NCBI RefSeq assembly: GCF_000149955.1
Contig: NC_030988.1
Span: forward strand, 4,500,642 to 4,564,641
Direction: 5' to 3'
Source: Fusarium oxysporum f. sp. lycopersici 4287
Taxonomy: Eukaryota > Ascomycota > Sordariomycetes > Hypocreales > Nectriaceae
Length of the DNA stretch: 64,000 nucleotides
Below, piece after piece: positions 9,706-37,400 of the stretch; positions within the stretch are counted from its first letter, which is position 1, and each line of letters starts with the position of its first letter. The position numbers and the translations under genes are program-made. Below the pieces are notes generated by a model. It made no database searches and was not told the DNA's origin. It was given only the letters and a program-made list of their open reading frames with translations.

Positions 9706-12319
9706 TAGGGATGGGCACGTGCATAATACACATGTGTATTAAGCTGCTTTTTATTATAACGAAGCAGCATTTTATTCCTAATAAAAAGCGCGCTTTTTAT
9801 TGCAATATTACGACCCATTTATGAAGCTGCCCATGGGCCATATCATACAAACAACCAAGCAAAATTAGGTCAATTTTTCCCCCGCTCCTTCGCTCTCTGA
9901 CCCATCTTCGACCTCAAGTGTGTCCACCACTGTCTCTTCTCCGTCGGAGGCGGGTTGGTGAGTGAACTCGCCGACAACAGCGTCAACTTCCAGATTTGAT
10001 GCGCAATGAATTTCCATATACGTATCTTCGAGTGTAAGCCAACCGTCTTCTGTCAAATCTTCCCAGCTGACCACCGTAGAATGATCATTGCGATGATCAA
10101 GAGGTTGATTCTGAGACTGCGTTATCCTCTCTAGCACCCGTTCGTTCATGTAGATGAACGCCAACTTGTCAGCGTTGGCTGGTGTGAGTCTGTTGCGTGC
10201 CTTGCTGTGGAGGAAGTTAACTGCCGAGAATGATCTCTCTGAGGGAACTGAATTGGCTATGGTTCCAAAGATCCGGACTGCAAGTGCAGCCAGCTTGCTG
10301 CCTTGGTTATCAAGAAGCATCCAAGCATCTAATGGAGTCCATTCTTTTGAATAGACTAAGCCTCCTGCAGCAAACCGGCCGCCCGATTGTGCTCGGAAGT
10401 GGTTAAATTCTCGAACAATATTGATGTAGTCAGCAGGATTGACTGCTGACTTAAAGAACTGCAGCACTTTCATCATCAGCTGTTCTTCAAGCTTAGTCCC
10501 GACTGTGTCAGGCCGTAATGCAAATCCCGCATAATGAATATCATATGTCTGTTTATCCATACGGTTTAACCATACGGAATACAGCTCGCTGAAATTCACG
10601 TCTTGATGTTGCTGAGACTCGTCAAGTGCTTTCCATTCTGCTTTAATCTCCAGCCAACGAGGAATCACATGGCCGATGTGAGCCCGATCGGCTTCTGAGG
10701 CACGCTGACGACTGTTGACAGGCTTAATTATGGCCAAAACAGTCTCTAGGCGTATCCAGAAGTGAGGGTTATTGACAGACTCCAGCACCTTTGGAAGAAG
10801 CTCGAGAGAGCCGGAGGCTAGCTCTGCCCTTACGTCAGGACGGCGAGCGTATGCTTGGAGAGGCTCTTTACAGCGTAAAACTGACTGTAAAGCATTGAAC
10901 TGACTGCCCCAGCGTGTGATTACACTAAAGCGAGCAGTCAGCTATAGCTAGGAGTCAGAAAAACTGAAAGACGCACGCAGATAAAAACGCCTTATGGTGG
11001 CCCCAAGCTGCCTTTTGTGCTTCTCTCAATCGAGCCAACTGCAGTTTCGACTTCTTGAAGAAGGTGACAATTAATGTAGCGCTTTTGAATGCCTCCTCAA
11101 AGAACGGCTGCTCTAGGATGTCCTTGATGAGTAGCTGTAGCCCATGTGAATCGCAGAGGGAAAAGAAGCAATGTTGGAATTCCTTTCTTGCTGCCAAATG
11201 CACATGAGCTTTCCTCATCACGCTATCCGTATCTGTGCAAAACGAGTTAATTCGCAAGAAGTTGCCCTTGCAAATTATCTCCAGCTCAGGATACAAAAGA
11301 TCGATGTAGTGCTCAGCCGTGTGTTGAATCTGTCCTGTATCAAACGTCTTCCAGTAGAACGCCGTACCATTTGCCACCTGTATCGAGATATTGATAATTC
11401 GATGACTTGTGATGTTGTCTGAGGCGTCAAAGATTACGTTGATATGTTCTGCTTGGTCGAGGATAGCCTGGACTTGATTGTGGTACTGAGAATAAGTCGG
11501 GGCTAGCAGCCGCTGTACTCGGCGACGAGACGGTGGTTGCCAGGCAGTGTTTAGCTTGCTCAACAGAATCCGCATTCGTTTGGACTCAAAGAGGTTAAAT
11601 GGACGGCCATCAGCAAAAATTGCTATAGCAGCAAGCTCATCAAGCATCTGCTTAAAGGTCTTGTCCACTACAGGAAAGTGATGAGTAAGTTGAGGCTGCT
11701 GAGACTGTTGCTGCCTTTTGTAATTGGGACAATGGCGAAGTAAGTGCTTCTTCTGACGAGTAGTGCCCTTGGTTATCTCGTGGCCGCAGTGCTTGCACTT
11801 GACTCTAGAGTTCTTGAAACCCGAACTAGCGTCGGAGGCAAGCGTGATAAATTCTCGGTGGACCTGGTGATCGGCTGGCCTTCCAGGGGTTCTGGGCATT
11901 GTAGAAGACACACGGAGGGTCTGAAGGTAGTGGGGAGTCGAATTGAGAAGTTTCAGGGGGATACATCGACAGACGGTTGAAGGCTGTGGAGAAAAGGAGG
12001 TCGGAAAAGGACTTATATTGTTCCTATGCACTAAACCTATTATAGAAGGCGCTAAGCCTAAGATAGAAGAGGAAATGTCGCAGGGTAGGCATTAGTAATC
12101 TAGCTATATGCTTTAAGTAACTGTGCGGGATGGAATACCCCGCACAAGAGAAAACTTAAGACATCAATCAACACATTTGCTGCTGCTCATCATATTCACT
12201 CTAACCCTTTAAGCACGCTCAGTGCGACAGGAAATAATGCATACAAAGCGCGTCTTGCTTTAAATATTTAATGCAAAAAGCGCATTTTATGTAATGATGC
12301 AGCATTAAATCCATCTCTA
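9706..12319 (-). mobile_element. hAT-superfamily DNA transposon (2614 bp)
   Basis: The left end begins TAGGGATGGGC and the right end, read inwards, begins TAGAGATGGAT: imperfect terminal inverted repeats of hAT type (T/CAGRGATG). Both subterminal regions are A/T-rich and share an AAATGCGCTTTTT-like word. The element is flanked by an exact 8-bp duplication (GTACCCAG) and carries a minus-strand transposase with a BED-type zinc finger and a C-terminal hAT dimerisation domain. The transposase frame is broken, so it is probably non-autonomous now. A stretch of its 5' untranslated region (12092-12187) recurs at 53888-53987. Confidence 0.92.
9865..11899 (-). pseudogene. hAT transposase, broken in the middle
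   Basis: The N-terminal part (ATG 11899 to stop near 10955) starts MPRTPGRPADH and holds a BED-like zinc finger (CKHCGHEITK, then KKHLLRHC) followed by the first part of the catalytic core (VIFDASDNITSHRIINISI, CDSHGLQLLIKDI). The C-terminal part (10788-9865) holds the dimerisation domain with SKLAALAVRIFGTIANSVPS and ERSFSAVNFLHSKARNRLT. Between them, TRWGSQFNAL lies in a second frame at about 10900. A 31-nt GT...AG stretch (CTGAC branch, TATAG end) would restore the frame but is shorter than any usual fungal intron, so a small indel is the likelier reading. The BED finger binds element ends and the RNase H-like core cuts and pastes. Confidence 0.85.
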
Positions 12320-16498: not shown

Positions 16499-18747
16499 AA
16501 AACTTTTGCCTATGTATCGCGTGAATCTAAAACTAAACAGCTTGTTAGACGGAGCAAAAGTCAAAGACGGTTGTCTGGGGTCCGAGCCGCCTGCGCGAAA
16601 CTCACGTAGAGATGAGGAAGGTTCACCACGTCGATGTGCTAAGTCAATTTCCTGTCGCCAATTGCTAGAAATTTATTAGTAGTTAGTTCTAATAACAACA
16701 CGATATACTCAAGCAGGATCGATGGCTTGAAACTGTATCATGAGACCCCCATGCATGAATGAATTGTATTGCCATCTCTGAAATCGCCCCTGCGTGCTGT
16801 CAAGCCTAGATTATCTCATTGTTCTTTGCTCTGACCAATTACAGCATTTATTGTATGCAGCTCATCCGCTTCTTACCACTTCGAGCTTAGAGGATGCATG
16901 CTGACCGGACTAAAGCCTCCGGGGAAACCGTCAGAAAACCATCTAACCATGCCAAAACAGGACATTATCCAATCAGACTCTTTCGTACAGGAACCCTACT
17001 CAGCTCTAGGGTAATCAGCTTGCTAATTCTCTCTTTTGCAACTTCGTAGGCTCAAAATATGGTCTAGCAATATAAAAGGCTTGGGAAGATGGGACGTTGA
17101 TTGGTTGGAAAGGGTTAGAAATGATTAACATTGGCCTGTCGCAGCTTTTCACGTTTTACCATCTGTTTCAACAATAGGTGGCCAAGAGCGAGATAATGGA
17201 GTAAGGGGAATAGGTAAAAGTCAGAAACTCAGAAACGATAAAATCTTATGTGTCACGCTGAATCACTCTACCTCTCAATCATGCTACTGTACACACATTC
17301 CAATTTGATATTGCTTAAGGGCACAAACGCGACTTCATGCCACCACCTTGGCTTTAGTCACCTGGCGATTGTTACAATTCACTGCACCCAATCTCCTAGG
17401 ACACATCATATCTCTCAAGGGCAACCTAGGGTAAGCTGGCAGCTAGGGTATAGCGAGACAAGAAGGTGATTCGGCAGGTTATGATTATGCACAAAGACAT
17501 GAAGAAACATCCAAATCGGCTCTGAAACCTCGGATTTGTTGATGACTCAGATACTTCTGGACCTTTCTCGCCACTGTGTCGCGAGACATGCGTATCCATC
17601 TGTCTGACCTATCGCTTCGACCTGGGGATCTCCATCTCCGGGCACCACTAGGCGATGAGGTTCAGTCATAGAATAATCATTCTTTTGTCAGGTCATCCGA
17701 ACCACGGATTCAGCATCAAGTGTATAGCCATATGAATCGTCAGTCGGGGAGAAACTGTGGGCTCCAGAATCGCTACTTGAGAAGATATGCCCGGTGGAGC
17801 TATGCACTAGCCCATCATGGTCCGATAGAGGTGAACGATTAGGACAAAGATTTGAGGATGAGGCGCACTTGCTGCAACGTAGCGACTCGTTGGACCTTCC
17901 AATATGGTTCTCTTCTGATGGCGTTCCATGTTGTATGTTAGAGCCGTGTAGCTTCCATTGTGACCGTGCTAAGATGTCACATTCCAGACAGTACGCAGAC
18001 CAGCGTGGAATGAGGCGTGAATCTGTTCCTACTAAAGACATGAAACTCATATAAGCTTCGTAGTTGAACTATGTACTAATGCTCTAGGGCAGCCATTGGA
18101 CTCTTATAGCATCTCAACTTCAGGCTCGCGATGATAACTGCCGTTACAGTTGGCCTGTCTAGGCCGTCGTCTCGGTTGCTGGGCTTGGGCAGGGTACGAG
18201 CCATCCACAACTTCACAATGCCGATGCAGAAGAAACAAAACCGATAGGTCTACGCTCCTAACTGCAACTCGACTCGAAAACCGACGTACATCCTCGATCT
18301 AGTTTATCATAGACTTAAAAGTCATGAACGGTATTGCGGAGCCTAGGTGTGAATGCTTTGGTGGAGCGCTTGCTGCGCTTTCTCATACAGAATCGCAATG
18401 TATCAGTCCCTAGCGGCCAAATATGCTAAGAAAGCCAGGTGCGGTCTCACGCTTCATGATCGTCTTCCTTATTCAATATAGTTCTTCCTCAATTCATAAC
18501 AGGCTGTATATTACTCTCCTTCAGACAAATCTAGACGATTACGTGATAGAAGGTCTAAAGTTGGCCGATGTAGACGTTAGGCTAGGCATGGTACACAGGC
18601 AAGTGACGGCAATATCAGAGTTCTTTTCTATCGAAAAGAACAGATATACTGTACTTGACTCCCCCTCCTCGATCTGGATAACTCGATATCTCTCCAGGGA
18701 ATATCAATCATCACTTTAAAAGAAGCTTTTGCCTCGAGAACACCGCT
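16499..18747. other. Intergenic; one weak minus-strand ORF
   Basis: No recognisable gene. A minus-strand frame at 18050-17688 (120 aa) has two CxxC pairs, YCLECDIL and LRCSKCAS, that could bind zinc, followed by a Ser-rich tail, but no family is recognised and it overlaps an equally long plus-strand frame. Nothing else is supported here. Confidence 0.3.
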
Positions 18748-19908
18748 ATGGCTCCTGATTCACGCGACAAGGCCCAGGTTTTGCATGATTTAGCGGACAG
18801 GTTCAACCATGCCGCAGACTTGCAATCAGGGAACCTGGAAAACGTGCGTATCGAGAATTGCATAGGGTTCTGCAAAGTTCCGCTTGGCATTGCAGGCCCG
18901 TTACGCTTAGCCGGAACACCGGTGCTCGACGATATCTATGCCCCTTTAGCCACATACGAAGCTACCCTTATCGCCAGCTACTCTAGAGGATGCAAGGCCT
19001 TTAATGCCTCTGGCGGCATACATATTGAAACTCTGAGCAATGGCATGTCTCGCGGTCCTGTCTTCGTTTTCCAAAATCCGAGGCGGGCAGTCATCTTTGC
19101 CCAAGCGCTACCGGGTATGCAGAACGCATTCGCTAGGTGGGCAGAAGCGACTAGCAAGCATCATGTTAGGCTCAAGACTATCGAACCTTCCATCATCGGT
19201 TCGCAGGTTCATCTTTTGTGCACCTATAGCTGTGGGAGCGCGGCGGGACAGAACATGGTCACCAAAGCCACACAGTACGCCTGTGAGATGTTGCGAGAGT
19301 CATTCGCCGATCAATACAACATCTTGGACTTTTTCATTGAAGGTCAGCTAGCTTCCGACAAAAAACCCTCCTGGGGAAACGTGAAGAAGGCTCGTGGTGT
19401 TGAGACTTTAGTCTGGGGAACGATTTCACGGGAAGTCTGTCAGAAGATCCTCGGCTGCACCACCGAGCGCCTCTACATGGCCCAGAAGACTCTCAAAGAA
19501 GGCGGGATCAGGAACGGTCAGTTTGGTTCCAACATAAACACGGTCAATATCATCGCAGCCATGTTCATTGCGACCGGTCAGGACACTGCCAGCACCGCCG
19601 AAGCATCCTGGAGCCATCTGACCTCGGAACTTGACCCTAAGACTGGTGCGCTTTGCATGAGCCTCTATTTCCCGTCCCTGCCTGTAGGCACTGTCGGAGG
19701 CGGTACAGGATACCCGATGCAGAAAGAGGCTCTCAAGATGCTGCGATGTGACGGAGACGGGCCAGACCAGAAGGAACGGCTGGCCGGGCTCATTGCAGCG
19801 TTCAGTCTTGCACTCGACGTCAGCACAAGCTCAGCTGTCGCGAACGACACCTTTACTGCCAGTCATATGAGGCTTGCTCGTGGAGAAACGCCGCAACCGC
19901 ATTTGTGA
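18748..19908 (+). CDS. HMG-CoA reductase-like enzyme, catalytic domain only (386 aa)
   Basis: Class I HMG-CoA reductase landmarks appear in order: ENCIGFCKVPLGIAGPL (residues 36-52, substrate/dimer motif), YEATLIASYSRGCKA (Glu71), SDKKP (Lys205), IATGQD (Asp279), VGTVGGGTGYP (313-323) and ASHM (His373). All four catalytic residues of the family (Glu, Lys, Asp, His) are therefore present. The usual DAMGMNM cofactor motif is altered to SAAGQNM at 164-170, losing the Asp. The N-terminal membrane and sterol-sensing region of standard eukaryotic reductases is absent; the ATG at 18748 lies only 35 residues before the first motif, and no upstream exon is seen. A soluble enzyme is expected. Canonical enzymes reduce HMG-CoA to mevalonate with NADPH. 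This may be a divergent, pathway-specific paralogue, perhaps serving a metabolite cluster with the P450s at 13-16.5 kb. It could instead use another acyl-CoA. Confidence 0.85.
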   Translation: MAPDSRDKAQVLHDLADRFNHAADLQSGNLENVRIENCIGFCKVPLGIAGPLRLAGTPVLDDIYAPLATYEATLIASYSRGCKAFNASGGIHIETLSNGMSRGPVFVFQNPRRAVIFAQALPGMQNAFARWAEATSKHHVRLKTIEPSIIGSQVHLLCTYSCGSAAGQNMVTKATQYACEMLRESFADQYNILDFFIEGQLASDKKPSWGNVKKARGVETLVWGTISREVCQKILGCTTERLYMAQKTLKEGGIRNGQFGSNINTVNIIAAMFIATGQDTASTAEASWSHLTSELDPKTGALCMSLYFPSLPVGTVGGGTGYPMQKEALKMLRCDGDGPDQKERLAGLIAAFSLALDVSTSSAVANDTFTASHMRLARGETPQPHL

Positions 19909-23963: not shown

Positions 23964-26168
23964 TCAATCAAAGCCCCAACTCTTATGGGATCCCCATTTA
24001 CGAAAGCGCCCAACCTTCCCGCGCATAACCTCTCGTAACGATCTATCCCGCAGCTTTCCTTCTTCCGATTCGTGAACTTGCGTGACCGCCAAAGACTGGG
24101 CTGGTTCTATAAGATACGGTAATTGTTGTAGCGCCTCCCGTGTGGAGGCGAGGTATGCCACGCTCTGCATTGTATCCGGATGGTTTTCTCCAAGCACAAG
24201 GCAGCGAAGGTGGAAGGCGGTTTGGTGAAGCTGAAAGGCTTCGTCATATCGGCCCTGCTGATGGTACGTCGCCGCGAGGTCCGCCATGCTGCTGATCGTA
24301 TCTGGATGCTTCCCCCGAAGCACCCCTCGTCGCATTTCTAGTACTTCTTGGCAAATGTTTTCGGCCTCGGCATAACGGCCCTGCTGATGGTACGTCGTCG
24401 CAAGGTCCGCCATGCTCCTGATCGTATTTGGATGCTTCTCTCCAAGCACCTCTCGTCGCATTTCTAGTACTTCTCGGCAAATGCTTTGAGCCTCATCATA
24501 TCGGCCCTGCACATGGTATGTCGCTGCAAGGTCCGCCATGCTTCTGATCGTATGTGCATGCTTTTCTCCAAGCACCTTCCGTCGAAGTTCTAATGCCCTT
24601 TTATCAACCGGCTCTTTCTCCCTCCACCGTTCTCGATCGTAAAGAAAATCCGATACTCTCTGGAATAAAGTTGCTGTCTCGATCTCCGTCCTGCTCACCT
24701 CCGCCCACTCCCCTACTCGTACAGCATGCGTCACATACTCCTCGCATTGTGCCCATGAAGTTGGTTGCGATGGCGGAAAAAGATCATCTACTATCTGTAG
24801 AGCTATGCCAGAATAGTATGCTTCGCTGTTCTCCGGTTCATTTACTGCACCTGGCGCCTTGCCCGTGGTCGTCTCTACCGAGCTGCTTATCCTCAACCCA
24901 AATCGTACGGCTTCTTGCACAAGCTTATGCATCTCATAACTTCGCCTGCTATCCTCCTTCCGACGTAGGCCAAGGAAAGAAAATTCGGTCAGACGGGTGA
25001 CTGCTTCTAGAACCTCAAGCTCCGTAGCCTCTCCAGTTGACCTCTCGCCGCCAATGTTGTATCGACTAGCAGCTGCCGCCATCAATTCTTGCGTTATGTC
25101 CTGACTATCCAGATACGCAATCACATGGAGAATGCCGTACGACATCTCGCTCTCCGCTCGAATTCGCTCCGTCGAGATCCTCCAAGTCTCAAGCACGCTG
25201 TTCGATACCTCTGGCCGTCGGTGTCGGTCCGTGCCGCTCATTCTTAGCACTTCCCATCGGGTCTTGCCCTGCCTGAGGAGGTCTAGGTACTTCTCGGCTG
25301 ACATTGACATACGCCTCATGTATACGCCGCCTTGCGAGATCGCTAAGGGTAAGCATCGTAACTCCTCCAATAGAGCGTCCACACTTGCCTCCCTCAAAGT
25401 CGACGGCTCATCTCTAGCTACTGCGAGAAGCGTCGTCGCCTCATCTATAACCATAGATCGCACCTCGATACCGCGACGCGATCCAACGAGCGTGCCGGCG
25501 ATACGCGCATCTCGACTCGTCCATAACACCGTCCCTTGCGATGTGCAAGGTACATATCTGTATAGATTCTGGTTCTCGTTCGATCCTTCTCCCTTGAATT
25601 GTCGGCCCACTCCAAACAACCTCAGGTTATCAGCGTTGTCGAGGACCAGCAGCCATTTCGGCCGCCTTTCGATCTCATTGCGCACTGCATCGAGCAGATC
25701 CGTCCCGTCAAGCTGCTCGTCGACCCCGAGCTTCTTGCCGATCGTCTTATAATCGGCTAGAAAAGTCGTCTCACTGTCGGCATGCACCCAAAATACGCTG
25801 CATTCCTCGTCGGCGTCGCATCGTCGATATGCGTAATCTAGCGCGATCTGTGTCTTGCTTGGTTCGTTCCTCTGTTAGCCCTTTCGCTACACCGTAGTGT
25901 GCCGAGTGGAGACCTACCCTGATCCTCCCAAGCCCCAAAGCGCAGCGCTACGGGATCCCGGCGTCGGTGGCAAAAGCTTATCTAGTCTGTCGATGAAATG
26001 CCGACGATGGACCAGATCCTCGTTGCGGGGATACGGAATGACGCGAACGACTTCGGCATGGGCCGCTGGGTGGGGCAAGTGGTAATGGATATCCCCCTGG
26101 TTAATTCTGGCATTGTCGCCAAATCGGCTGCAAGTGACGCCGCGTCGGTGGAACGCTGGCTGATCCAT
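23964..26168 (-). CDS. NOD-like receptor: N-terminal motif, NB-ARC, TPR (714 aa)
   Basis: Exons 26168-25918 and 25857-23964 are separated by a 60-nt intron (donor GG|GTAGGT, branch CTAAC) that splits the P-loop GLGGSG|KTQIALDY. The order is: residues 1-14 lead; a short motif at 15-31 (FGDNARINQGDIHYH); linker VRVIPYPRNEDLVHRRHFI; Walker A at about 79-87; Walker B KWLLVLDNADN with Asp near 157; GTVLWTSRDARIAGTL and LPLAISQGGVYMRRM, typical of NB-ARC; then four kinesin-light-chain-type 42-residue TPR units (RREVLGEKHPNTIRSMADL and variants), the last degenerate. Fungal NLRs of this plan act in nonself recognition and programmed cell death: TPRs sense a ligand, the NB-ARC oligomerises and the N-terminal motif seeds a partner. 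The divergent neighbour at 26360 carries related motifs, so it is the likely partner. No stop or frameshift is seen. Confidence 0.9.
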
Positions 26169-26359
26169 TTTGTTGCTAATTATTTTACAGCACCAATCTT
26201 CTGGAAGTCGCCAAATTTGTACAGTCTCACGTCCGGAGAGGGGTAGCAATAAGGCTGAGAACGTGACGAGACACAGCCTCACTGATTGGTTAAAGACAGA
26301 GCGCATTGCCATCAGATGACCATAATCGTACTTTTACCTACCACCAACAGACTACAACA
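26169..26359. promoter_or_regulatory. Short bidirectional promoter between NLR and SesA-like gene
   Basis: Only 191 bp separate the two divergent start codons (26168 minus, 26360 plus), so both core promoters overlap and co-regulation is likely. No specific factor-binding site can be assigned. Confidence 0.5.
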
Positions 26360-27735
26360 ATGGTACTCACCTCTCGGCCTAGCTCTGATATAGGCTTCAT
26401 TCGCTGATTTTTATCGCGCAGGCAGAGGCAATAGGAGCAGCGGCTAGCATCATCGGCATTATCGGTGCGGCATTTACTGTCATCCAGGAGATTCGAAGCG
26501 CGCGGGGCAGGGTCCAAGGCACATCCGAGACGCTGGATAATATGTCTAAGCATCTGGACGCTATCGATGAATCACTTGGTCTTGTTCGCGAGGAAGAAAA
26601 GCTGCAAACGGCCAGGGTCGAACTGCAGGTGAAGGCCATCACCAACATTGCCACTGAGCTTAGATCATTCCTGGATAACCTTGCTGCCAGGCAACGAGAG
26701 AAGGCCGTGTCACAGTTCTTCCACGCCCTTAAGTCGGGCGACAAGGACGACAAAAAGTTGCAAGGCATCCTGGACCAGCTTGACCGGGCTCGTAATGAGC
26801 TCGGGTTGCGGATCTCGGTGGCTCAAGTCGGCTTGTTGGGAAACCTCCAAGACGGCTTTCGAGTTGCATTCGGCGTTCTCGAGCAGACAAACACTAGGGT
26901 CAACAAAGTGCTCGGGATCAACTTGGCTCTTCTGGATATTGTGAAGAACCGAGCGCTGCAGCAGACAGGTCAGACATATATGTTAGTGATCGCACAAAAC
27001 AGACCTACTGACGAGATTTCATAGCGGATGGATTCATACCAGTTAATGTTGCTGACATACTAGCGATGGGAATGTCCGCCCCCGATAATACGACGAGCAT
27101 GAGCAGCTCCAACGAGGTGAGGGAAACAAATATTTATGGCAATGTGACGCTTGGTCAGGCCCGAATAATGACGGGCAATATTGGGGTAGAAGGTTGGCAG
27201 AAAATGGCAGGTCGCAAGACGACGATTGCCAACAATCAGTTCGGTCACGACGTCCGAATCATCACTGGTGACATGGGAGGGGAGGCGGCGAGGGGCTTCA
27301 ACGATTCCTTCTGGAAGTGAGATTATTAAAGTCTACGTTCGAGCATTGCTATTGAACCCGTTACCACTAGTCATTTCCATCCGGAACTACTGTATCAGCA
27401 TCGATCGCCCTGAACTATTCACAACGATAACTTTCTCCATGAGAAGACCACTGTCTCCGCAAAGCAGTGATTGCATAAGGTGCCGCAATAAATGCTCATA
27501 GAGAAAGGGATTCCACAGCGGTGCCCTCGAACTTAAGATAATCCAGGTAAGTCTCGAATTTTGGAATATGTAGCAGTATCGCTGTAAAATCACCTAGAAA
27601 GGCGCTGACGAACCAAGTATGCAGGCAGGTCAAAGTCATTCAACCGAGCGTGGCGTTGCGGACAACTTATTGGGAGATAGAGTTTGGATCAACCAAGGTG
27701 ATGTGGGAGGAAACATGACATTTGGGCCTACGTGA
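26360..27735 (+). CDS. SesA-like domain protein with three C-terminal amyloid-type motifs (327 aa)
   Basis: Five exons: 26360-26362 (the ATG alone), 26422-26968, 27064-27316, 27504-27546 and 27598-27735. Phases agree throughout. Donors include ATG|GTACTC, CAG|GTCAGA, AA|GTGAGA and CAG|GTAAGT; branch CTGAC precedes exon 3. Residues 2-180 form a helical domain starting AEAIGAAASIIGIIGAAF, with LDNLAARQREKAVSQFF and ISVAQVGLLGNLQDGFRVAF, which matches the SesA-type N-terminal domain found on fungal STAND/NLR proteins. The tail holds three related motifs: about 205-226 (LGQARIMTGNIG), 239-257 (NNQFGHDVRIITGDMGG) and 303-325 (DNLLGDRVWINQGDVGG). They resemble the neighbour NLR's FGDNARINQGDI. In the HET-S model the globular domain is the executor and the tail the amyloid switch. 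If exon 3 is not spliced the protein stops at 268 and lacks the third motif. Confidence 0.75.
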
Positions 27736-27895
27736 AGCGTCTGATTTGACAGTTCCCTGAGGTCCGTTGTTGACTGTATATTCCGGTCAAAGTATGGCTT
27801 CGTCGAGAAGGTACGCCATTCCCTTCATGCAGTGATTATCTAGGGCTGAGTGTGGCTGAAGTCGGGCGTGTGGCTGGTTAAAGTGGTTTAGGTTC

Positions 27896-27932
27896 GTCAT
27901 CCTGTCATCCTGTGATCATGTCATCCTGTCAC
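27896..27932. repeat. Short tandem repeat, CATCCTGT unit
   Basis: Imperfect tandem copies of an 8-base unit GTCATCCT, with one variant unit (GATCATGT). Low-complexity sequence, no function inferred. Confidence 0.6.
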
Positions 27933-28031
27933 CCTAGCACCTGGCCCCGCCTTTATGAGTAATATTTAGCCTTGTAACTCAGGCTCACATACTTACACAA
28001 GCCAGGGTAGTTTGGGACCGACCACTTCTTT

Positions 28032-28343
28032 GTGTTTCCACTTTTCCCTCTTTTGTCTCGTTACCAACATCCAGGAGCCATAACCTGTGACGAGGCTGGC
28101 GTGAAGCTGGAGATGACAGCACCGTACACGCCCGACACTAACCCGATTGAAGAGTACTTTGCTGAGATGAAGGCTTATGTGAAGCTGCGGTGGGATGAGC
28201 ACATCAGTCTCATCCAGAGAGATTTTGGATCCTATGTCAGGTCATGCGTGCAAACTGTAGGGGAACACAGGCGAGCGCTGAGGGACACTTTCGTAATGCA
28301 GGACTGGCGGTTGAGCAACCTCTGTAGAGGCACGAGCCACTAG
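28032..28343 (+). mobile_element. Remnant of a Tc1/mariner-type DDE transposase
   Basis: Only the C-terminal part of the catalytic domain remains. It reads LEMTAPYTPDTNPIEEYFAE followed by a helical RWDEHISLIQRDFGSYVRSC. The PYSPDLNPIE-type motif with its last catalytic acidic residue (here in NPIEEYF) is diagnostic of the Tc1/mariner (DDE_3) fold. The upstream two-thirds, including the first two catalytic aspartates, and the inverted repeats are not seen, so this is a dead fragment. Confidence 0.75.
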
Positions 28344-28451
28344 ACCTTAGAGACCACGCTAGACATTGTTTGTAGTTTAAGCTAGAGGGAAAGGAAATAA
28401 GGTGTGAGGCATAAAGCATGGGAGAGAAAACAAAATATGATCATCATTCTG

Positions 28452-29810
28452 CTACCCTAGAGCTTCCTCAATCCAACGTGGCACATCATTCATGAACGAA
28501 AGCGCAACCCCCAATTGAACTCCTCTGTCGGTGTAAAACTCAGCACCTACTTCAGAGTGGACATGCCTAAGATCGAGGCATGCCTCTCTTGTGATTTCGT
28601 AAGCACATCGAATGTTTTGCTGCCAACGAGGGCTATCCACTTGATCCTGTTGCCATTCGTGGTATCTTTCTAGAGCCTGGTTTCTCCGCATGGGGATGAC
28701 AAGGTCGATCGGTCGCTGCCGAGTCGCCACCGACCCCTGCACTTCTCCCCGCGCTTCAGCATTGGACTCGTTAAAAATCTCACCCTGATGCTGACCAGGA
28801 TGACCAGGACAGGTGACGTTGATATTAATTGGAGACGAACTGTCAGATCTCTTACGCTTTAGCCTTCTTCGCTCCGAGCTCTCCTCTTCATTCTTGTAGA
28901 TCACCTGGCGGATGTTTTCAGGCACGTCATCGTGCGTCCTCAGCAGATTTCCTTCCTCAGCAAAGTCAACAAGCATGCTCAGGATGTTAGTATCGAGCTT
29001 GTAGTGCTTCTTGCTCTCCGGATCACGCCAGCAATAGAACTGCGAGTTCACGCAAGGGACACCGGTGCAGTGCAGAAGCTCGTAGACTTCTTTCCACACG
29101 GGACGAGAGCCCGTCGACTCTTCCTGATCAGCAAGCAGTTGGTCTCTGGCAATGAGCTGTCGGCCTGTAGCCCCACGGCCGCGACTCCGGATAGTCGCAG
29201 CTGCCGGCTGCATGACCTCTTTATAAACAAAAGAGATATAAATTCTTAGCTTATTACCTTCACGGAAGAGAGGAGCCCAGCCTCTCAGCTTATCTTCTAT
29301 CGTCCTTTAGTCCACAACGAGGCCATCAAAGCGCTTCCTCATGTTACGTTCACTACGTTTCTCTACGCTCACAATAACGGTTGTCTCATCAGATTCGTAC
29401 CTCGGCTCGGGAAGTTTGTCCTTAACGGTCGTCGCTAAGTCGAGGCTTAGAAACTTGTCCCAGTAGGCACCGGGGGCAAGGGTCAGATTCTCCTCCGTGA
29501 TCTCGACCAGCTTGGACAGTCTGCCCTTCTTAAGCTGAAGCTTCCATTCGATATCGTAGTGAATGCACGTTGGATCGTCTTCGTCGTCTCGGAAGTTGGG
29601 GTCCCAATCACTTAGCCCAAGCAATGGCAGGCGTCTGTCTTGGAGAGGGGTGCCATAAGCGCGCGGAGTTTCGCAGGTCCGAAATGGCGGAGTTCGGCCA
29701 TCAAGGTCAAACTCGCCATCCAAAGAGAAGGGGCTGTCGTTGGCACGGCGAGGATCGTAATCTGGCGCATACATGTCAGGCGAGAAGGAACATCGAGGAG
29801 GCAAACTCAT
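28452..29810 (-). pseudogene. Conserved fungal hypothetical protein, one premature TAA
   Basis: One frame runs from the ATG at 29810 to the stop at 28452, about 450 codons, broken only by a TAA at 29309-29307 (FDGLVVD, stop, then TIEDKLRGWAPLFREG). Sequence on both sides is in the same frame and has the order of a widespread ascomycete family of unknown function: CIHYDIEWKLQLKKGRLSKL, then PVWKEVYELLHC, FYCWRDPESKKHYKLDT, THDDVPENIRQVIY, a basic cluster RRRLKRKRSDSSS (likely nuclear), and a C-terminal ALERYHEWQQDQVDS helix. The family residue at the stop is expected to be Trp, so two G-to-A changes would explain TAA. Family members occur in multiple copies near mobile elements in other fungi; that is my recollection, not something shown here. 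A loss-of-function copy is the simplest reading. Confidence 0.7.
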
Positions 29811-30286: not shown

Positions 30287-33153
30287 ATGCCAGCACATTC
30301 ACCGCATGAGCAACGCGAGGTCAGCCATAACCAGTTCCGCGACCATACTGTCATCCACCAGGGAAACGTTCAAGGGAACGTCTACTACGGCGCGCCCCAC
30401 CCGGCGGCCCGCGCCGAAGTCGTCCGCGTCATTCCATATCCCCGCAACGAGGATCTGGTCCATCGACGGGATCTCATCGACAGACTAGATAAGCTTTTGC
30501 CATCGACGCTGGGATTGCGCAGTGCCGCGCTCTGGGGCCTAGGAGGATCGGGGTAGGTGTCCGCTTTCGGCATGGTACGATTGTCGCGAACGGGCTAACA
30601 GAGGAATGAATCAAGCAAGACACAGATCGCGCTAGACTACGCATATCGACGATGTGACGCCGACGACGACTGCTACGTATTTTGGGTGCATGCCGACAGC
30701 GAAGCGACTTTCCTAGCCGATTATAAGACGATTGGCAAGAAGCTCGGGATCGACGAGCGGCTTGATGGGACAGACCTGCTCGATGCAGTGCGCAACGGGA
30801 TTGAAGCTCGATCGAAATGGCTGATGATCCTCGATAACGCCGACAACCTGAGGTTATTTGGAGTGGGTCAAGTGAAAGGGGAAGGGATGGCCGAGAACCT
30901 ATATAAATACATTCCTCATGCATTGCAAGGGACGGTGCTGTGGACAAGTCGAGACGCGCACATTGCAGGCACGCTTGTTGGAGCGCGACGTGGTGTCGAG
31001 GTGCAGTCCATGGCTGTAGATGAGGCAACAACACTTCTCGCAAGGGTCCGAGATGAGCCAATAAGTACAGAGCAGGCAGTGGAGGAGGCAGGAGTGGATG
31101 CTCTTCTGCAGGAACTACAGTGCCTCCCGTTGGCGATCTCACAAGCCGGCGCATACATGCGGCGGATGTCGATGACAGCCGAACAGTATCTGGATCTCCT
31201 CAGACAAGGCAAGACCCGATGGGAGGTGCTGAAGGTGAGCGATGCCGATCGACATCGACGACCGGAGGTATCGAACAGTGTGCTTGAGACGTGGAGGATC
31301 TCGATAGAGCGGATCCGAGTGGAGAGCGAGACATCATACCGGATATTACACGTGGTTGCGTATGTGGACTGTCAAGACATACCTCACGAGCTAGTAGCAG
31401 CGACGGCTCGTCGATACGATAAAGAGGATGAAGAGGATGTCATTTCAACCGGACAAGTCTCAGACCTTGAGGTTTTGGAAGCAGCCACACGCCTGACAGA
31501 GTTTTCTTTCCTCAGCCTTCGCCAGACAGAGGATAGTGGGAGAAGGTACGAGATGCACAAGCTTGTGCAAGAGGCTATACGATATGGGCTGAGGGTGAGA
31601 GGCTCTGTAGCAACAACCATTGGCAATGCATTGAGGGCAGACGAGGGGCCAAAAGAGGATGAGGGATACTACTGTGGCAAGGCGCTGCAGGTAGTGGGCG
31701 ACCTCTTCCCGTCATCAGAACCTACTACATGGGCACGATGCGAGGAGTACCTGACGCATGCCATTCAAGTAGGGGAGTGGGCGGAGGTAGGCGGGACAGA
31801 GACGGAGACAGCAAATTTACTTCAGAGAGTATCATACTTTCTTTATGAACGAGGTCGGTGGAGAGAGAAAGAGCCGGTAAACAGTCGGGCTTGGGGTCTG
31901 CGACGAGAGGTGCTCGGGGAGAAGCATCCTGATACAATCGACAGCATGGCAGACCTCGCGGCGACATACCATGCGCAGGGTCGATATGAGGAGGCCGAAG
32001 GGCATCTACCAAGAAGTACTAGAACTCCGACGAGAGGTGCTCGAGGAGAAGCATCCTGATACGATCAGCAGCATGGCAGATCTCGCGGCGACATACCATG
32101 CGCAGGGTCGATATGAGGAGCCCGAAGGCATCTACCAAGAAGTACTAGAACTCCGACGAGAGGTGCTCGAGGAGAAGCATCCTGATACGATCAGCAGCAT
32201 GGCGTCACTCGCGACGATATACCATGCTCAGGGTCGATATGAGGAGGCTGAGAAACTGAAAGATAAAGTACTGGAACTCCGACGAGAGGTGCTTGGGGAG
32301 AAGCATCCTGATACGATCAGCAGCATGGCGGAACTCGCGGCGACATACCATGCTCAGGGTCGATATGAGGAGGCTGAGAAACTGAAAGATAAAGTACTGG
32401 AACTCCGACGAGATGTGCTCAGGGAGAAGCATCCTGATACGATCAGCAGCATGGCGTCACTCGCGACGATATACCATGCGCAGGGCCGATATGAGGAGGC
32501 CGAAGGCTTCTACCAAGAAGTATTAGACCTCCAACGAGATGTGCTCGGGGAGAAGCATCCAGATACGATCAGCAGCATGGCGGAACTCGCGGCGACGTAC
32601 CATAATCAGGGCCGATATGAGGAGGCCGAAGGCATCTACCAAGAAGTATTAGACCTCCAACGAGAGGTGCTCGGGGAGAAGCATCCAGATACGATCAGCA
32701 GCATGGCGGAACTCGCGGCGACGTACCATAATCAGGGCCGATATGAGAAGGCTGAGAAACTGAAAGATAAAGTACTGGAACTCCGACGAGATGTGCTCGG
32801 GGAGAAGCATCCAGATACGATCAGCAGCATGGCGGAACTCGCGGCGACGTACCATAATCAGGGCCGATATGAGGAGGCCGAAGGCATCTACCAAGAAGTA
32901 TTAGACCTCCAACGAGAGGTGCTTGGGGCGAAGCATCCAGATACAATACAGAGTATGGAGTATCTTGCCTCAATCCAGGAGGCTCTACAGCAGCTACCAA
33001 GTCTCAGAGTCAGTCCAGTCTCTAACAATCACAAAAGCGGACGAAAAGGAAGCCGAGTCTAAGACAGGGCTCAGACCTCTGTGGAATGATCTACGTAAGA
33101 CAACTGACAAGTTTTGTAAGTCGAGGTTCTTACGATCGCAGCAGGGGCCTTGA
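30287..33153 (+). pseudogene. NLR paralogue with about nine TPR units and two frameshifts
   Basis: Exon 1 (30287-30552) and exon 2 (from 30616) are split by a 63-nt intron at the same P-loop position as the NLR at 24-26 kb (GLGGSG|KTQIALDY). The N-terminal motif at residues 14-35 reads NQFRDHTVIHQGNVQGNVYYG, then VRVIPYPRNEDLVHRRDLI, Walker B KWLMILDNADN, GTVLWTSRDAHIAGTL and LPLAISQAGAYMRRM. The TPR array begins near 31,890. One extra G at 32000-32002, compared with the other repeat copies (GAAGGC), shifts the frame inside the first repeats, and a second shift near 33000 is needed to reach the tail homologous to the other NLR's C-terminus (SLTITKADEKEAES). As read it cannot give a full-length product, unless the shifts are assembly errors in near-identical repeats. 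It shares most of its NB-ARC sequence with the 24-kb gene. Confidence 0.85.
31890..32985 (+). repeat. Tandem 126-bp TPR repeats
   Basis: About nine head-to-tail units of 126 bases (42 codons) with consensus EVLGEKHPDTISSMAELAAT and YHAQGRYEEAE. Units are almost identical at DNA level and fall into two spacer types, IYQEVLDLQRE and LKDKVLELRRD, arranged in alternating blocks. This indicates recent unit duplication and exchange. The paralogue at 24 kb has only four, more diverged units. Confidence 0.9.
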
Positions 33154-33549: not shown

Positions 33550-34404
33550 ATGCTGAACAAGACTGAAACACCACGGTCGTCGGTTCAATCGTATGCAGAC
33601 GCAGCCAGGATGACATCCACCAGCATGTCCAGTCAATCTTCATCTGCAGCCCGATCGGCAACTCCAGAACCGGTGTTCTGCACAGTCGACACATCCAGAG
33701 TTCCTGAAGACCATCTTGGAGACGCTACACCAACAATGATTCGCAAGACCGTGGAGCAGGAGATGCGACAGTCAAGTGACCAACCTCACTGGCGATGCGT
33801 CGCAGTGACCAGAGATGGACGGAATGCCAACCGCCTCAGGATTATAGGTAGGAACGAAGAAGAAATACAGAAGATCAAGACTATCCTTGAAACCAGGAAA
33901 GCTCCAGGTGCAAGAGTCCTTCGGGACCAACTATATCCTATCAAAGTTGATAGCATGAATCGTATGGCCGTCTTTGACCAGGCGTTTAACATCCTCCCTG
34001 GAGCAATAGAAGCCTTAAACCAGGAGAATGAAGTCCAGATTGCCAAGGTAGCCTGGCTGAGCCGGAAGGCCAACCCCAAGTCATATGGATCCATGGTGGT
34101 GTACCTCACTAAGAGCAGCGACGCCAAGAGACTACTGCAGGAACACTACTTTCTCGTCGCAGGTGAATCGGCATATACGAGTGTATTTGAGCAGACTACT
34201 GGACCGGAACAATGCTATAACTGCCAAGAGCTCGGCCACAAAGCATACGCATGCAGCAAGCCTCGAGTATGTGCAAGGTGCGCCGCTGAGGGTCATCATC
34301 ATAGTGAGTGCCAGGCGCAGATACCAAAGTGCGTCCTCTGCAGTGGTCCGCATGAGTCATTCAGTAGAAATTGCCTGAAACTCCACCCCAGGCGGCATGA
34401 GTAA
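33550..34404 (+). CDS. LINE ORF1, Gag-like nucleic-acid-binding protein (284 aa)
   Basis: The N-terminal 60 residues are Ser/Thr-rich. The middle (about 60-205) is a mixed alpha/beta stretch including [20 protein letters not shown] and [20 protein letters not shown]. The C-terminus has tandem CCHC-type zinc knuckles: [30 protein letters not shown] and [15 protein letters not shown]. Such proteins coat element RNA to form the ribonucleoprotein. It is shorter than many fungal LINE ORF1 proteins, consistent with a 5'-truncated element. The stop overlaps the ORF2 start by 8 bases (34397-34404). Confidence 0.88.
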
Positions 34405-37400
34405 GTTGTTCCGGGTGATGCAACTGAATGTGAGAAAGCAGGATGCGGTGCACGAAAGCCTTATGAACGATAAGAATCTTCGAGAATACACAGCGATCGC
34501 GATCCAAGAGCCTCAGGCACACCAGAAGGACGGCAAGCTACTGACGATTCCTATGAGACATCCGAGATGGGTCAAGATGGTCCCGACTGTTTGGAGGGAG
34601 GGAAGATGGCCGATCCGAAGCATGTTATGGGTGAACAAGGATGTGGAGGCGGAGCAGATACCGATACAGACGGCAGATATGACGGCAGCCATCTTGCGAC
34701 TTCCTGGACGCCTAGTACTGGTTGTGTCCGTTTACGTACCGGGACGAGACGATGAGGCGTTGCAAGGTACCTGCAACCTGCTGCATCAGGTCATTTCAGG
34801 CACAAGAAGACAAGCCGGTGGGCTGGTGGATGTGGTAATTGTTGGAGACTTCAACCGACACGACCAATTATGGGGAGGAGATGAGATATCCTTGACGAGG
34901 CAAGGCGAAGCGGATCAGATCATCAGCCTTATGACTGAGTTTGATCTAACGAGCCTGCTTCCAAGGGGGACGAAGACGTGGAGTGGCGGAGATTTCGAGA
35001 CAACAGTCGACCTGGTCCTTGCTTCGGCAGACCTAGCGACCTCGACTGTCAAGTGTATGATACACGGCACAGAGCACGGATCCGATCATCGTGCTATCGA
35101 GACGGAGTTCGATGTCTCTGTTCCGATGCCGCAAGCCCAGGAGCGACTTTTGCTCAAGAACGCACCATGGAAGAAGATCAACGCCCGGATTGCCGAGGCG
35201 TTAGAGTCCATTCCGGAACAAGGCACCGTACAGCAGAAGACTGACAGGCTTATGACAGTGGTGCTGGAGGCAGTCCGCGCGCTAACACCCAGAGCTAAGC
35301 CGTCACCATACGCAAAGCGTTGGTGGACCTCAGACCTCACGCAACTTCGGCAGATATACACACACTGGAGGAACCGTGCCAGAGCATCGAGACGTGCGGG
35401 ACGAGCATGCGAGGAGCTTGAGGACACGGCGAGAGGAGCAGCAAAGCAGTACCATGATGCCATCAGACAGCAGAAAAAGACGCATTGGAACGAGTTTTTA
35501 GCCGATAACGACAACATATGGAAGGCAGCAAAGTATCTCAAGTCCGGAGACGATACAGCATTTGGCAAAGTACCCCAACTCACGAGGGTCGACGGCACAC
35601 GTACGACCAACAATATCGAACAGGCCGAGGAGATGTTAGTCACGTTCTTCCCTCCATTGCCGCAGCACATCGAGGTGGAAGGGGATCGACCCCAGCGCGG
35701 ATCTGCTGTCGTCATGCCAAATATCACTATGGAGGAGGTAGAGCGACAGCTTTTCGCGGCGAAATCATGGAAAGCACCCGGCGAAGATGGGCTACCAATC
35801 GCAGTCTGGAAACAGATCTGGCCTTCTGTCAAGCACCGAGTCTTCTCACTTTTTCGTGCTTCGTTGGAAGATGGCGTGCTGCCGGATCAATGGAGACATG
35901 CCAAGATCATTCCTCTGAAGAAACCAAACAAGGAAAACTATTCGATCGCGAAGGCATGGAGGCCCATCTCGCTTCTATCTACCCTGGGCAAAATACTAGA
36001 GGCGGTCGTCGCAGAAAGGATCTCGCATGCTGTTGAAACACACGGATTACTGCCAACAAATCACTTTGGAGCTCGTAAACAACGTTCCGCTGAGCAGGCT
36101 TTGATGCTGCTGCAAGAGCAGATCTACGCCGCCTGGCGAGGTCGATGGATCCTTAGCCTGGTGAGCTTTGACGTCAAAGGAGCTTACAACGGGGTGTGCA
36201 AAGAGAGACTCATCCAAAGACTGAGAGCAAGGGGCATACCAGAGGATCTACTTCGCTGGATCGAAGCTTTTTGCTCGGATCGCACAGCGACTATTCAGGT
36301 CAACGGACAGACATCCGAGAAGCGAGAGTTGCCACAAGCCGGGTTGCCGCAGGGCTCCCCTCTGTCCCCGATCCTGTTCCTCTTCTTCAACGCGGACCTT
36401 GTCCAGCAACGCATCGATTGTTATGGGGGAGCGATAGCGTTTGTGGATGACTTAAACTGCGTGGGTGACAGGTCCAACCGCAGAAAGTACCCACAAGAGG
36501 GGATCAAAGGGATCATTAAGAAAGCTCTAGACTGGGAGAGAAGAAGTGGCGCGACGTTCGAGACAGAAAAGGACGGCGATCATACACTTCACGCGGAAAG
36601 CATACAAGTCCGACGAGGAACCTTTCGCGATCAGGGGACAGCTCATTCGGCCCAAGTCTCAGGTCAAGGTTCTGGGAATGATCATGGATGCCGGCCTCAA
36701 ATATAAAGAGCACATTGCACGGGCAGCGGCTAAGGGATTGAACGCTGCGATGGAGCTGCAAAGGCTCAGGGGTCTTACTCCGAGGACAGCGAGGCAGTTG
36801 TTCGCAGCCACGGTGGCCCCGGTCGTGGACTACGCCTCAAACGTATGGATGCATGCATGCAGGTATAGAAGAGCCAGCCCTATCAACCGGGTTCAGAGGA
36901 TTGGGGCAAATGCAATCGTGGGGACATTCCTCACAGTGGCTACAAGCGTAGCAGAAGCAGAGGCACATATCGCCAGTGTACATGAGCGGTTCTGGAAACG
37001 GGCCATCAAGATGTGGACTGATCTACATACCCTTCCGACAACCAACCCTCTCCGAAGCTCTACATCTCGCATTCGAAAGTTCAGAAGATACAATCGCTCG
37101 CCATTCTACGAGGTAGCAGTGGCACTCAATGAGATCCCGATGGAAGAACTAGAAACGATCAACCCTTTCACGTTGGCACCCTGGGTAGAACGGGTGCAGA
37201 CTATAGTAGATGATGGGGATAGTTTAGGGACAACACAAGCAGATCTAGGATGGGCGGTACGGGCAGCAGTGAGCAGTTCGGCGCGGAATGGGGTAGTCGG
37301 AGTTGGCGGGGTCATCGAGATCCCCACCTCGGTGCGAGGAGGACCGAAGCTTGAGCGCTTTTCCTTCACGCTCGGCATGAGGACGGAGCAGAACCCATTT

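Follow-up and report, generated by a model that had tools for sequence, protein, structure and literature searches.

A candidate amyloid-signalling module in Fusarium oxysporum: an HRAM-like motif common to two NLR receptors and one effector

Background

The described systems to which the locus presented here is most readily compared are HET-S/NWD2 and HELLF/FNT1. HELLF is an HRAM5 protein, and its receptor FNT1 has an NB-ARC/TPR architecture (see PMC7885112); sesA proteins were included in the 2015 HRAM survey (PMC4518210). An earlier note on this DNA saw the known architecture realised with other domains, NB-ARC/TPR and a SesA-like domain; both had thus been described before. According to the main text and tables of the survey, only 38 of the 155 published HRAM proteins pass the Pfam model PF11558, and the loops are unconserved, with a length of 6-18 aa in 154 of the 155 (PMC4518210). 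The core positions 8 and 18 are in general described as hydrophobic in HRAM. The nomenclature requires some care: a Podospora HeLo-like protein is assigned to HRAM4 in the text and table of the survey (PMC4518210), and HELLF is assigned to HRAM5 in papers of 2017-2021. That several receptors may feed one death protein has been named as a possibility in a review (PMC5485727).

Results

We analyzed a stretch of 64 kb (the window) of NC_030988.1 from Fusarium oxysporum f. sp. lycopersici 4287, which holds the receptor gene FOXG_16268, the effector gene FOXG_16109/16269 and a second receptor gene. NLR1 has one N-terminal motif copy (r0), the divergently oriented effector of 281 aa has two C-terminal copies (r1 and r2), and NLR2, at 30.3 kb, has an r0 of its own. 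The features are as follows.

26168-25918 and 25857-23964, minus strand: NLR1 (FOXG_16268), NB-ARC/DUF7779/TPR receptor, 714 aa; spliced model, identical to public protein P0081
26088..26150, minus strand: r0 motif of NLR1, HRRGVTCSRFGDNARINQGDI; 46.0 bits with the r0 profile made without the window copies
26360-26362, 26422-26968 and 27025-27320 (exons), plus strand: effector (FOXG_16109/16269), 281 aa; model identical to public protein P0001 (FOXG_16109)
27120..27182, plus strand: r1 motif, effector residues 216-236, RETNIYGNVTLGQARIMTGNI
27213..27275, plus strand: r2 motif, effector residues 247-267, RKTTIANNQFGHDVRIITGDM, followed by GGEAARGFNDSFWK
27619..27735, plus strand: orphan r0 reading frame, 38 aa and stop, with the motif LLGDRVWINQGDV at 27643-27705
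27754..28343, plus strand: Tc1-like DDE transposon remnant, about 20 bases past the orphan r0
30287..33062, plus strand: NLR2 (public protein FOXG_06903, 887 aa), exons 30287-30552 and 30616 onward
30308..30370, plus strand: r0 motif of NLR2, EQREVSHNQFRDHTVIHQGNV; 53.8 bits with the r0 profile made without the window copies, the top site of the window

The divergent NLR/SesA-like pair that the earlier note had proposed is present, and both gene models agree letter for letter with public proteins, which include the exon that carries r1 and r2. The description as a pair nevertheless overlooked the second NLR, from 30287 onward, which carries the strongest motif copy of all. NLR1 is an NB-ARC/TPR NLR: both NB-ARC (27.4 bits, cut-off 23.5) and TPR_10 (145.9 bits, cut-off 27.5) exceed their Pfam cut-offs, and DUF7779 scores 28.7 bits. 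For NLR2 (30599-32056) TPR_10 scores 44.4 bits, with DUF7779 (25.2 bits) and NB-ARC (22.8 bits) both slightly below cut-off. A literature search by the locus names FOXG_16109, FOXG_16268 and FOXG_16269 returned no paper.

The effector consists of a helical-bundle domain (approximately residues 1-175), a linker and the tail with the two motifs, which are separated by a loop of 10 residues; GGEAARGFNDSFWK comes after r2. The SesA-like label of the earlier note finds weak support in sequence, as the window effector scores 16 bits with Pfam SesA, under the cut-off of 26.3. In the set of 21 aligned effector sequences SesA is matched by 12 and PigL_N by 6 at E<=0.1, with a best E-value of 1.6e-4, and the domain is therefore only weakly identified as sesA. 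AlphaFold2 predicts a helical bundle and two equal sets of strands, the latter at low confidence. The structure matches of the bundle include MLKL-like ones, tied with unrelated bundles, and Foldseek gave no match at E<=0.001. The HET-S HeLo and HET-s fibril structures were absent among the structure matches listed, an absence that carries no weight against them. A search of solved structures with the effector profiles yielded nothing relevant, with neither HET-s nor HELLF among the matches listed. The weak matches in that search were coiled coils and one putative acyltransferase (E 1.4).

The presence of a common motif in receptor and effector, as claimed in the earlier note, is far above chance. 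The original pattern, widened after the fact to admit one further copy, has 5 six-frame matches in the window, whereas 300 residue shuffles gave 0.05 on average and never more than 1. An ungapped r0 profile of 21 columns, derived from 102 distinct NLR N-termini, ranks the r0 of NLR2 (54.0 bits), the r0 of NLR1 (46.8), the orphan r0 (23.6) and r2 (17.5) as the top four sites of the window, the next site having 12.6 bits; without the two window NLRs in the profile the same four sites score 53.8, 46.0, 23.5 and 17.6 bits. Missing from the ungapped ranking, r1 attains 9.4 bits when a gap of one residue is allowed, a score reached by 4 of 500 shuffles, and 19.2 bits with the r2 profile (0 of 500). 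Conversely, the r0 of NLR1 scores 15.9 bits with the effector r2 profile, which none of 500 shuffles reaches.

The motifs also align between the relatives of the receptor and those of the effector. With the receptor profile only 3 of the 21 effectors exceed the best of 1050 shuffles and 14 lie above the 95th percentile, counts that are not independent, given the homology among the receptors and among the effectors. A local HMMER search with the receptor motif gave partial matches, with a median best score of 8.6 over 38 tails (some tails score below 0); of 6800 shuffled tails one attained this median. A pattern search recovered both repeats in 33 of the 79 effector matches, many of the others being short. 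Over the 21 effector sequences the mean column identity is 0.80 for r1 and 0.76 for r2, as compared to 0.46 for the linker. The loop between the repeats is conserved as well (0.69), and the repeat period is 31 aa in 18 of the 20 sequences in which it could be measured.

The earlier note had counted the motif at 27643-27705 as a third copy in the effector tail. However, it lies in a separate frame of 38 codons past the effector stop, and it fits the receptor profile (23.6 bits) better than the r2 profile (10.4 bits). A third copy after r2 is lacking in all 33 effector relatives with two repeats. On these grounds LLGDRVWINQGDV is rejected as part of the tail. The orphan r0 probably represents the N-terminal end of a receptor that has otherwise been lost. 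The translated pieces of the neighbouring transposon remnant match the transposase part of P0003 in a comparison by eye; DDE_3 scores 16.3 bits, under its cut-off of 28.6.

Judged by locus tags, the gene pairing recurs in further Fusarium strains and species: 11 effector/receptor pairs have consecutive tags, and five effectors are flanked by two receptors. The r0 motif is present in many of the listed Trichoderma receptors; among the effector matches with a named source none is from Trichoderma.

Gly19 is invariant in both repeats of 16 effector tails and is found in 118 of 122 receptor copies; these copies were drawn with a pattern that constrains positions 5, 8, 10, 16, 19 (G, N or S) and 20, and leaves 18 free. 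Positions 5, 10 and 16 follow the hydrophobic rule of HRAM, whereas in most of the 122 receptor copies position 8 is S or N and position 18 is Q (102 of 122); most effectors have T at 18. In r2, N predominates at position 8, where r0 has N or S, and r1 fits there only with a one-residue gap. The window copies agree with 5-7 of 8 HRAM rules versus 6-8 for six HRAM1 copies from the same genome, where random 21-mers reach five rules in 5% and six in 0.7% of cases. The six HRAM1 copies gave no clear match to the receptor or effector profile. In the opposite direction, a profile of these six selected 19 of 157 receptor N-termini (13 expected by chance) and 12 of 21 effector tails (4.1 expected by chance).

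In a genome search with the Pfam models PF11558 and PF17108 (E<=1) no match was obtained at the locus, and elsewhere three places pass PF11558 and one PF17108; likewise, neither the tails nor the N-termini matched the Pfam HET-s models at E<=10. The r0/r1/r2 motif seems to be absent from the main text and Tables 1-2 of the HRAM catalogue (PMC4518210), as far as considered, and from the parts considered of PMC9815663 and PMC12261475, and those of PMC12258605 add nothing further on it. In PMC9815663, r0 could correspond to NLR40 or NLR34, two receptor-only motif classes, or to the HRAM3-like NLR12. The motif has the layout of HRAM, and hence does not come from nowhere, but seems not to be part of the HRAM catalogue, direct comparison being with HRAM1 only.

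Discussion

We consider it likely that the locus encodes a cell-death module that signals through amyloid, as HET-S/NWD2 and HELLF/FNT1 do. The evidence consists of a motif present once in each receptor and twice in the effector, the recurrent divergent gene pairing, the second receptor with its own r0, and the predicted helical bundle with two equal predicted strand sets. Points that count against it are the small number of effectors above the best shuffle with the receptor profile, the unclear HRAM1 comparisons, the missing Pfam HET-s matches at the locus, the lack of HET-s and HELLF among the solved structures listed, the tie of MLKL with unrelated bundles, and the Trichoderma receptors with r0 for which no named Trichoderma effector match is known from the search. 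The amyloid-signalling reading of the earlier note is retained in its motif alignment, its gene pairing and the exon with r1 and r2, and loses the third tail copy. Probably r0/r1/r2 is an HRAM-like amyloid-signalling motif that forms an uncatalogued subfamily. We tentatively put forward a more specific reading, which we rate slightly below an even chance: the motif would define an HRAM class missing from the catalogue, polar at core positions 8 and 18 and with rungs spaced rigidly at 31 residues. It would serve a receptor-executioner-receptor triad where two receptors with diverged r0 share one executioner, amplified on duplicated chromosome blocks of this wilt fungus.

For the set of effector and receptors we infer amyloid formation and cell death along the following lines. 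The TPR repeats of either receptor would sense a ligand, and the NB-ARC domains would oligomerise in response, which would gather several N-terminal r0 motifs into a stack of beta-solenoid rungs. This stack could then template r1 and r2 in the effector tail, upon which the SesA/HeLo-like helical bundle would move to membranes and kill the cell.

The same working could also have been reached by convergence, in a new superfamily that arrived at the HET-s layout with an ancestry separate from HRAM. The polar residues at 8 and 18, the unclear outcome of the HRAM1 comparisons, and the near-fixed period and conserved loop, as opposed to the unconserved HRAM loops of variable length, would all fit such an origin. 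We regard it as unlikely, considering that Gly19, Arg15, the hydrophobic residues at 5, 10 and 16, N or D at 20, the diglycine and aromatics after r2 and the copy numbers in receptor and effector all obey the HRAM rule, that HRAM4 has been published with Q at 18 (PMC4518210), and that the HRAM1 profile prefers the effector tails. Somewhat less probable still is a beta element for docking or oligomerisation that associates receptor and effector without prion-like templating. The strands are predicted at low confidence only and amyloid is deduced here, which leaves room for such an element; the two copies at a near-fixed period rather suit a solenoid, and in the accounts considered the tested systems of like layout, HET-S and HELLF, act through amyloid templating.

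We attach an equally low probability to a decaying, functionless locus in strain 4287, carried along in a segmentally duplicated block. Indeed, the orphan r0 lies near a transposase remnant, the frame of the window copy of NLR2 changes near 31.9-32.1 kb, inside the TPR repeats, the NLR2 frame is shortened in the copy at 1.66 Mb on C3, and the block is present in three near-identical copies. However, NLR1 and the effector both have open frames and are identical to public proteins, the stretch 24922-28485 of the window is identical in all three copies, NLR2 is open in the C6 copy (820 codons from exon 2 on), and the effector tail is better conserved across species than the linker.

Catalogues of natural variants are a route to the number of fungal amyloid alphabets and to what prevents cross-seeding between them. 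With the present family they would gain a class that is polar at positions where hydrophobic residues mostly make up the known core. HET-s-type copies occur in the same genome, so that insulation is testable within a single species. Moreover, one executioner between two receptors with different r0 would offer a way to see whether several receptors feed one death protein.

In the same species, strain Fo5176 has the GDQN motif pair, likewise a SesA-domain effector with a probable NLR, for which the published pattern NxxxGxQYxxxGxGDQNxVSxxxxQxN does not describe the window motif (PMC12261475). HRAM4, as described in 2015, shares the Q at position 18 with 102 of the 122 receptor copies, whereas most effectors of the window family have T, and the species table lists no F. 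oxysporum HRAM4. The NWD2/HET-S system (HRAM1) is alike in its single receptor copy, two effector copies, Gly at 19, neighbouring genes, and diglycine and aromatic end after r2, but differs in its NACHT/WD receptor and HeLo effector. A pair of this HET-s type is found elsewhere in the genome (C12, 1.786 Mb, 79.3 bits with PF11558), with no clear match to the r0 and r2 profiles. In the FNT1/HELLF system of Podospora anserina the effector is HeLo-like (277 aa), whereas the window effector (281 aa) reads as SesA; HRAM5 has Q at position 16 in the 2015 description, where the window family has I, with Q or T at 18; and the window family often has two receptors per effector. Both systems nevertheless combine an NB-ARC/TPR receptor that has one N-terminal motif with an adjoining effector that ends in two pseudo-repeats.

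The shared motif and its carriers

The receptor NLR1 runs leftward from 26168 (714 aa; spliced P-loop GLGGSGKTQ; Pfam domains NB-ARC, DUF7779 and TPR), whereas the divergent effector (281 aa, three exons) is read rightward from 26360. Both are letter for letter identical to F. oxysporum f. sp. lycopersici 4287 proteins. A second receptor, NLR2, runs rightward from 30287. The features of the region are the following.

9865-10941, minus: hAT-type transposase ORF (24.5 bits)
18682-19908, plus: HMG-CoA reductase-like ORF (PF00368, 291.7 bits); nearby ORFs resemble cytochrome P450 (judged by eye)
23964-26168, minus: NLR1 (FOXG_16268)
26360-27320, plus: effector (FOXG_16109/16269)
27619-27735, plus: ORF with an orphan motif copy (27643-27705)
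28452-29306, minus: open frame of 284 codons, with the transposon remnant on one side and NLR2 on the other; no Pfam match at E<=0.01
30287-33062, plus: NLR2
34379-36706, plus: LINE-type reverse transcriptase (RVT_1, 87.4 bits)

In the numbering of the HRAM papers, the motif at the receptor N-terminus (r0; 122 copies taken from 157 receptor matches by a pattern that itself constrains positions 5, 8, 10, 16, 19 and 20, with 18 matches lacking the anchor used and 16 falling outside the pattern) has I/V at 5 in 119 copies, S/N at 8 in 120, F at 10 in 116, D at 12 in 103, I at 16 in 110, Q, L or M at 18 in 102, 13 and 5, G at 19 in 118 and N or D at 20 in all 122. The two copies in the effector tail have the consensus RKTTIAxNxFGxDVRIMTGD (r2) and, shorter by one residue, ETSIYDNxTLGQARIMTGN (r1). 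Their period is 31 in 18 of the 20 measurable sequences and 30 in the remaining two. The loop between the repeats is as conserved as the domain (mean column identity 0.69), against 0.46 in the linker.

A profile of 102 distinct receptor copies found its best place within the last 70 residues in 20 of 21 effectors, and an r2 profile (20 distinct copies) within the first 60 residues in 142 of 157 receptors, where chance predicts about 13; because the receptors form one homologous set and the effectors another, these counts are non-independent events. Permuted-column profiles matched these placements in 1/300 and 0/300 trials, and a control block chose the effector tail in 4/21. The absolute scores are modest; with the receptor profile 3/21 effectors exceeded the best of 1050 whole-protein shuffles and 14/21 the 95th percentile. 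The placements bear out the proposal of the earlier note that receptor and effector share a motif.

The earlier note had also placed a third copy in the effector tail, which proved incorrect. This orphan r0 lies 0.3 kb past the effector stop, in a 38-codon ORF with its own ATG that resembles an NLR start, and scores 23.6 bits with the receptor profile versus 10.4 with the effector profile. Tc1-like transposase pieces (translated, by eye) start about 20 bases behind it. In the 33 relatives with both repeats (among 79 effector matches) no such copy follows r2, and 32 of them have at most 20 residues there. In protein P0003, with 187 residues after r2 and a transposase fused in the gene model, no r0-like window was found in that extension (best 4.7 bits).

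Conservation of the arrangement

The expected gene pairing was recovered in relatives: for 11 of the 79 effector matches an r0 receptor bears the next locus tag, the pairing being based on tags and lengths as recorded, not on DNA. The effector/receptor pairs are FOXG_16269/16268, ACKAV7_001922/1921, AU210_016179/180, AU210_016215/216, FOCG_17620/17619, NW760_012661/662, FDENT_1167/1168, FRV6_08857/08856, BFJ70_g17222/17223, FOQG_18567/18566 and FAUST_9267/9266. For the effectors P0001, P0010, P0011, P0014 and P0033 (Pleurostoma) the longest contig is equally long as for a receptor match. The other 63, many of them short or metagenomic, have no partner among the best 120 of 326 and of 319 receptor matches. 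Since r0 receptors flank the effector on both sides in five of the 11 pairs (AU210 twice, FDENT, FRV6, FOQG), the window looks like a disturbed receptor-effector-receptor triad.

A decayed effector relative at C1:1483902-1484618 (L008) keeps the r1-like stretch ESSVYDNITLDQARAMAGEVGVQGW, and no r2 was seen by eye. A further r0-bearing NLR occurs in two copies, at C1:5987191 (L016) and C15:1693468 (L017); because a genome search with the effector (E<=0.1) found none nearby, it would have to rely on an effector located elsewhere. Many Trichoderma NLRs among the matches listed carry r0, and Trichoderma is absent from the named effector matches; the partner there may have another domain or be too diverged.

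On C9 there is apparently a sister module within the same genome, around 87 kb.

C9:83000-92900 (L027), local 4072-4920, minus: second SesA-like effector
C9:83000-92900 (L027), local 5444, plus: r0

This effector is deeply diverged (28% identity, one TAG inside the match) and has two motif-like repeats. It scores 22.9 bits with Pfam SesA, under the cut-off of 26.3, and its tail reaches 12.5 bits with one of the two profiles (0/500 shuffles) and 10.0 with the other (1/500). Beside it, in divergent orientation, lies a reading frame with a NACHT match (28.4 bits against a cut-off of 26.7), and the ORF in between has HDFVLTGINFGNHARLHQGNI (receptor profile 25.8 bits, 0/500 shuffles); we infer that ORF and frame are a single gene. 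The C9 locus is a more independent case of motif sharing.

Genomic setting

The LINE-type reverse transcriptase and hAT-type transposase ORFs place the locus among mobile elements. In the genome examined (61.2 Mb, 71 contigs) the NLR1-effector-NLR2 block occurs three times, on C3 at 4.53 Mb (the window) and ~1.66-1.67 Mb, and on C6 at 2.79 Mb. Window 24922-28485 (3564 bases), which takes in the effector together with the orphan r0 and over half of NLR1, shows no differences among the three copies. A 3246-base stretch around the NLR2 start has 44 and 43 differing positions among copies; between window and C6 all 43 are confined to the final 52 bases, starting at about 32.0 kb. It is there, in the TPR repeats, that the NLR2 copies diverge (window; C3:1658500-1664500; C6:2797000-2803000), and these repeats seem to be the first part of the recently duplicated block to diverge. 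The window copy shifts frame in these repeats near 32 kb; the open frames from exon 2 count 486 codons in the window, 654 in the C3 ~1.66 Mb copy and 820 in the C6 copy. FOXG_06903, a public protein of 887 aa, begins as NLR2 does and further on matches a different frame of the window.

Comparison with known HET-s-type motifs

HRAMs are described as 21-residue repeats, of which the effector carries two and the receptor a single one, with Gly at 19, Arg/Lys preferred at 15, positions 5, 8, 10, 16 and 18 hydrophobic in general, a loop of 6-18 residues and an end often with aromatics and diglycines (PMC4518210). The window locus shows most of these features but deviates at positions 8 and 18; its motif family also has the conserved loop and the period of 31 (18/20). 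A search of the genome with the Pfam HET-s model did not find the window locus; it found a divergent HET-s-type pair on C12 (79.3 bits) and two more effectors with 36.8 bits apiece, one at 34 kb on C3 and one at 4.45 Mb on C6. All these copies are called HRAM1 here from their Pfam match. In a profile comparison with these copies the window effector was not clearly HRAM1-like.

Table 1 of PMC4518210 gives 22 HRAM1, 3 HRAM2 and no HRAM3-5 for F. oxysporum. Since the effector is present in many named F. oxysporum strains, is not clearly HRAM1-like and lacks both the N (HRAM1) and the Q (HRAM2) at position 3, we infer from this table that the survey overlooked it, perhaps because of a SesA score under the cut-off. 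Alternatively, copies of the window type may already be counted, hidden within the HRAM1 or HRAM2 totals. A 2025 scan of strain Fo5176 reported 17 sigma and 6 HET-s motifs and a new GDQN pair (PMC12261475); the six may or may not include the window motif. The first 90 residues of the Fo5176 receptor P0080 are those of NLR1.

The motif likely belongs to the HRAM superfamily. Q at 18, found in 102/122 receptor copies, is the mark of HRAM4, but the Podospora HeLo-like protein was HRAM4 in 2015 (PMC4518210) and HRAM5 in later papers (PMC5485727, PMC7885112), so that the nearest class is not fixed. NB-ARC/TPR receptors with HRAMs are already known (FNT1; PMC7885112), and different receptors serving one effector have been proposed (PMC5485727). 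By analogy with the HRAM family, of which the locus would be a new member with variant features, the window system would form amyloid and kill cells, and its mechanism would be the known one.
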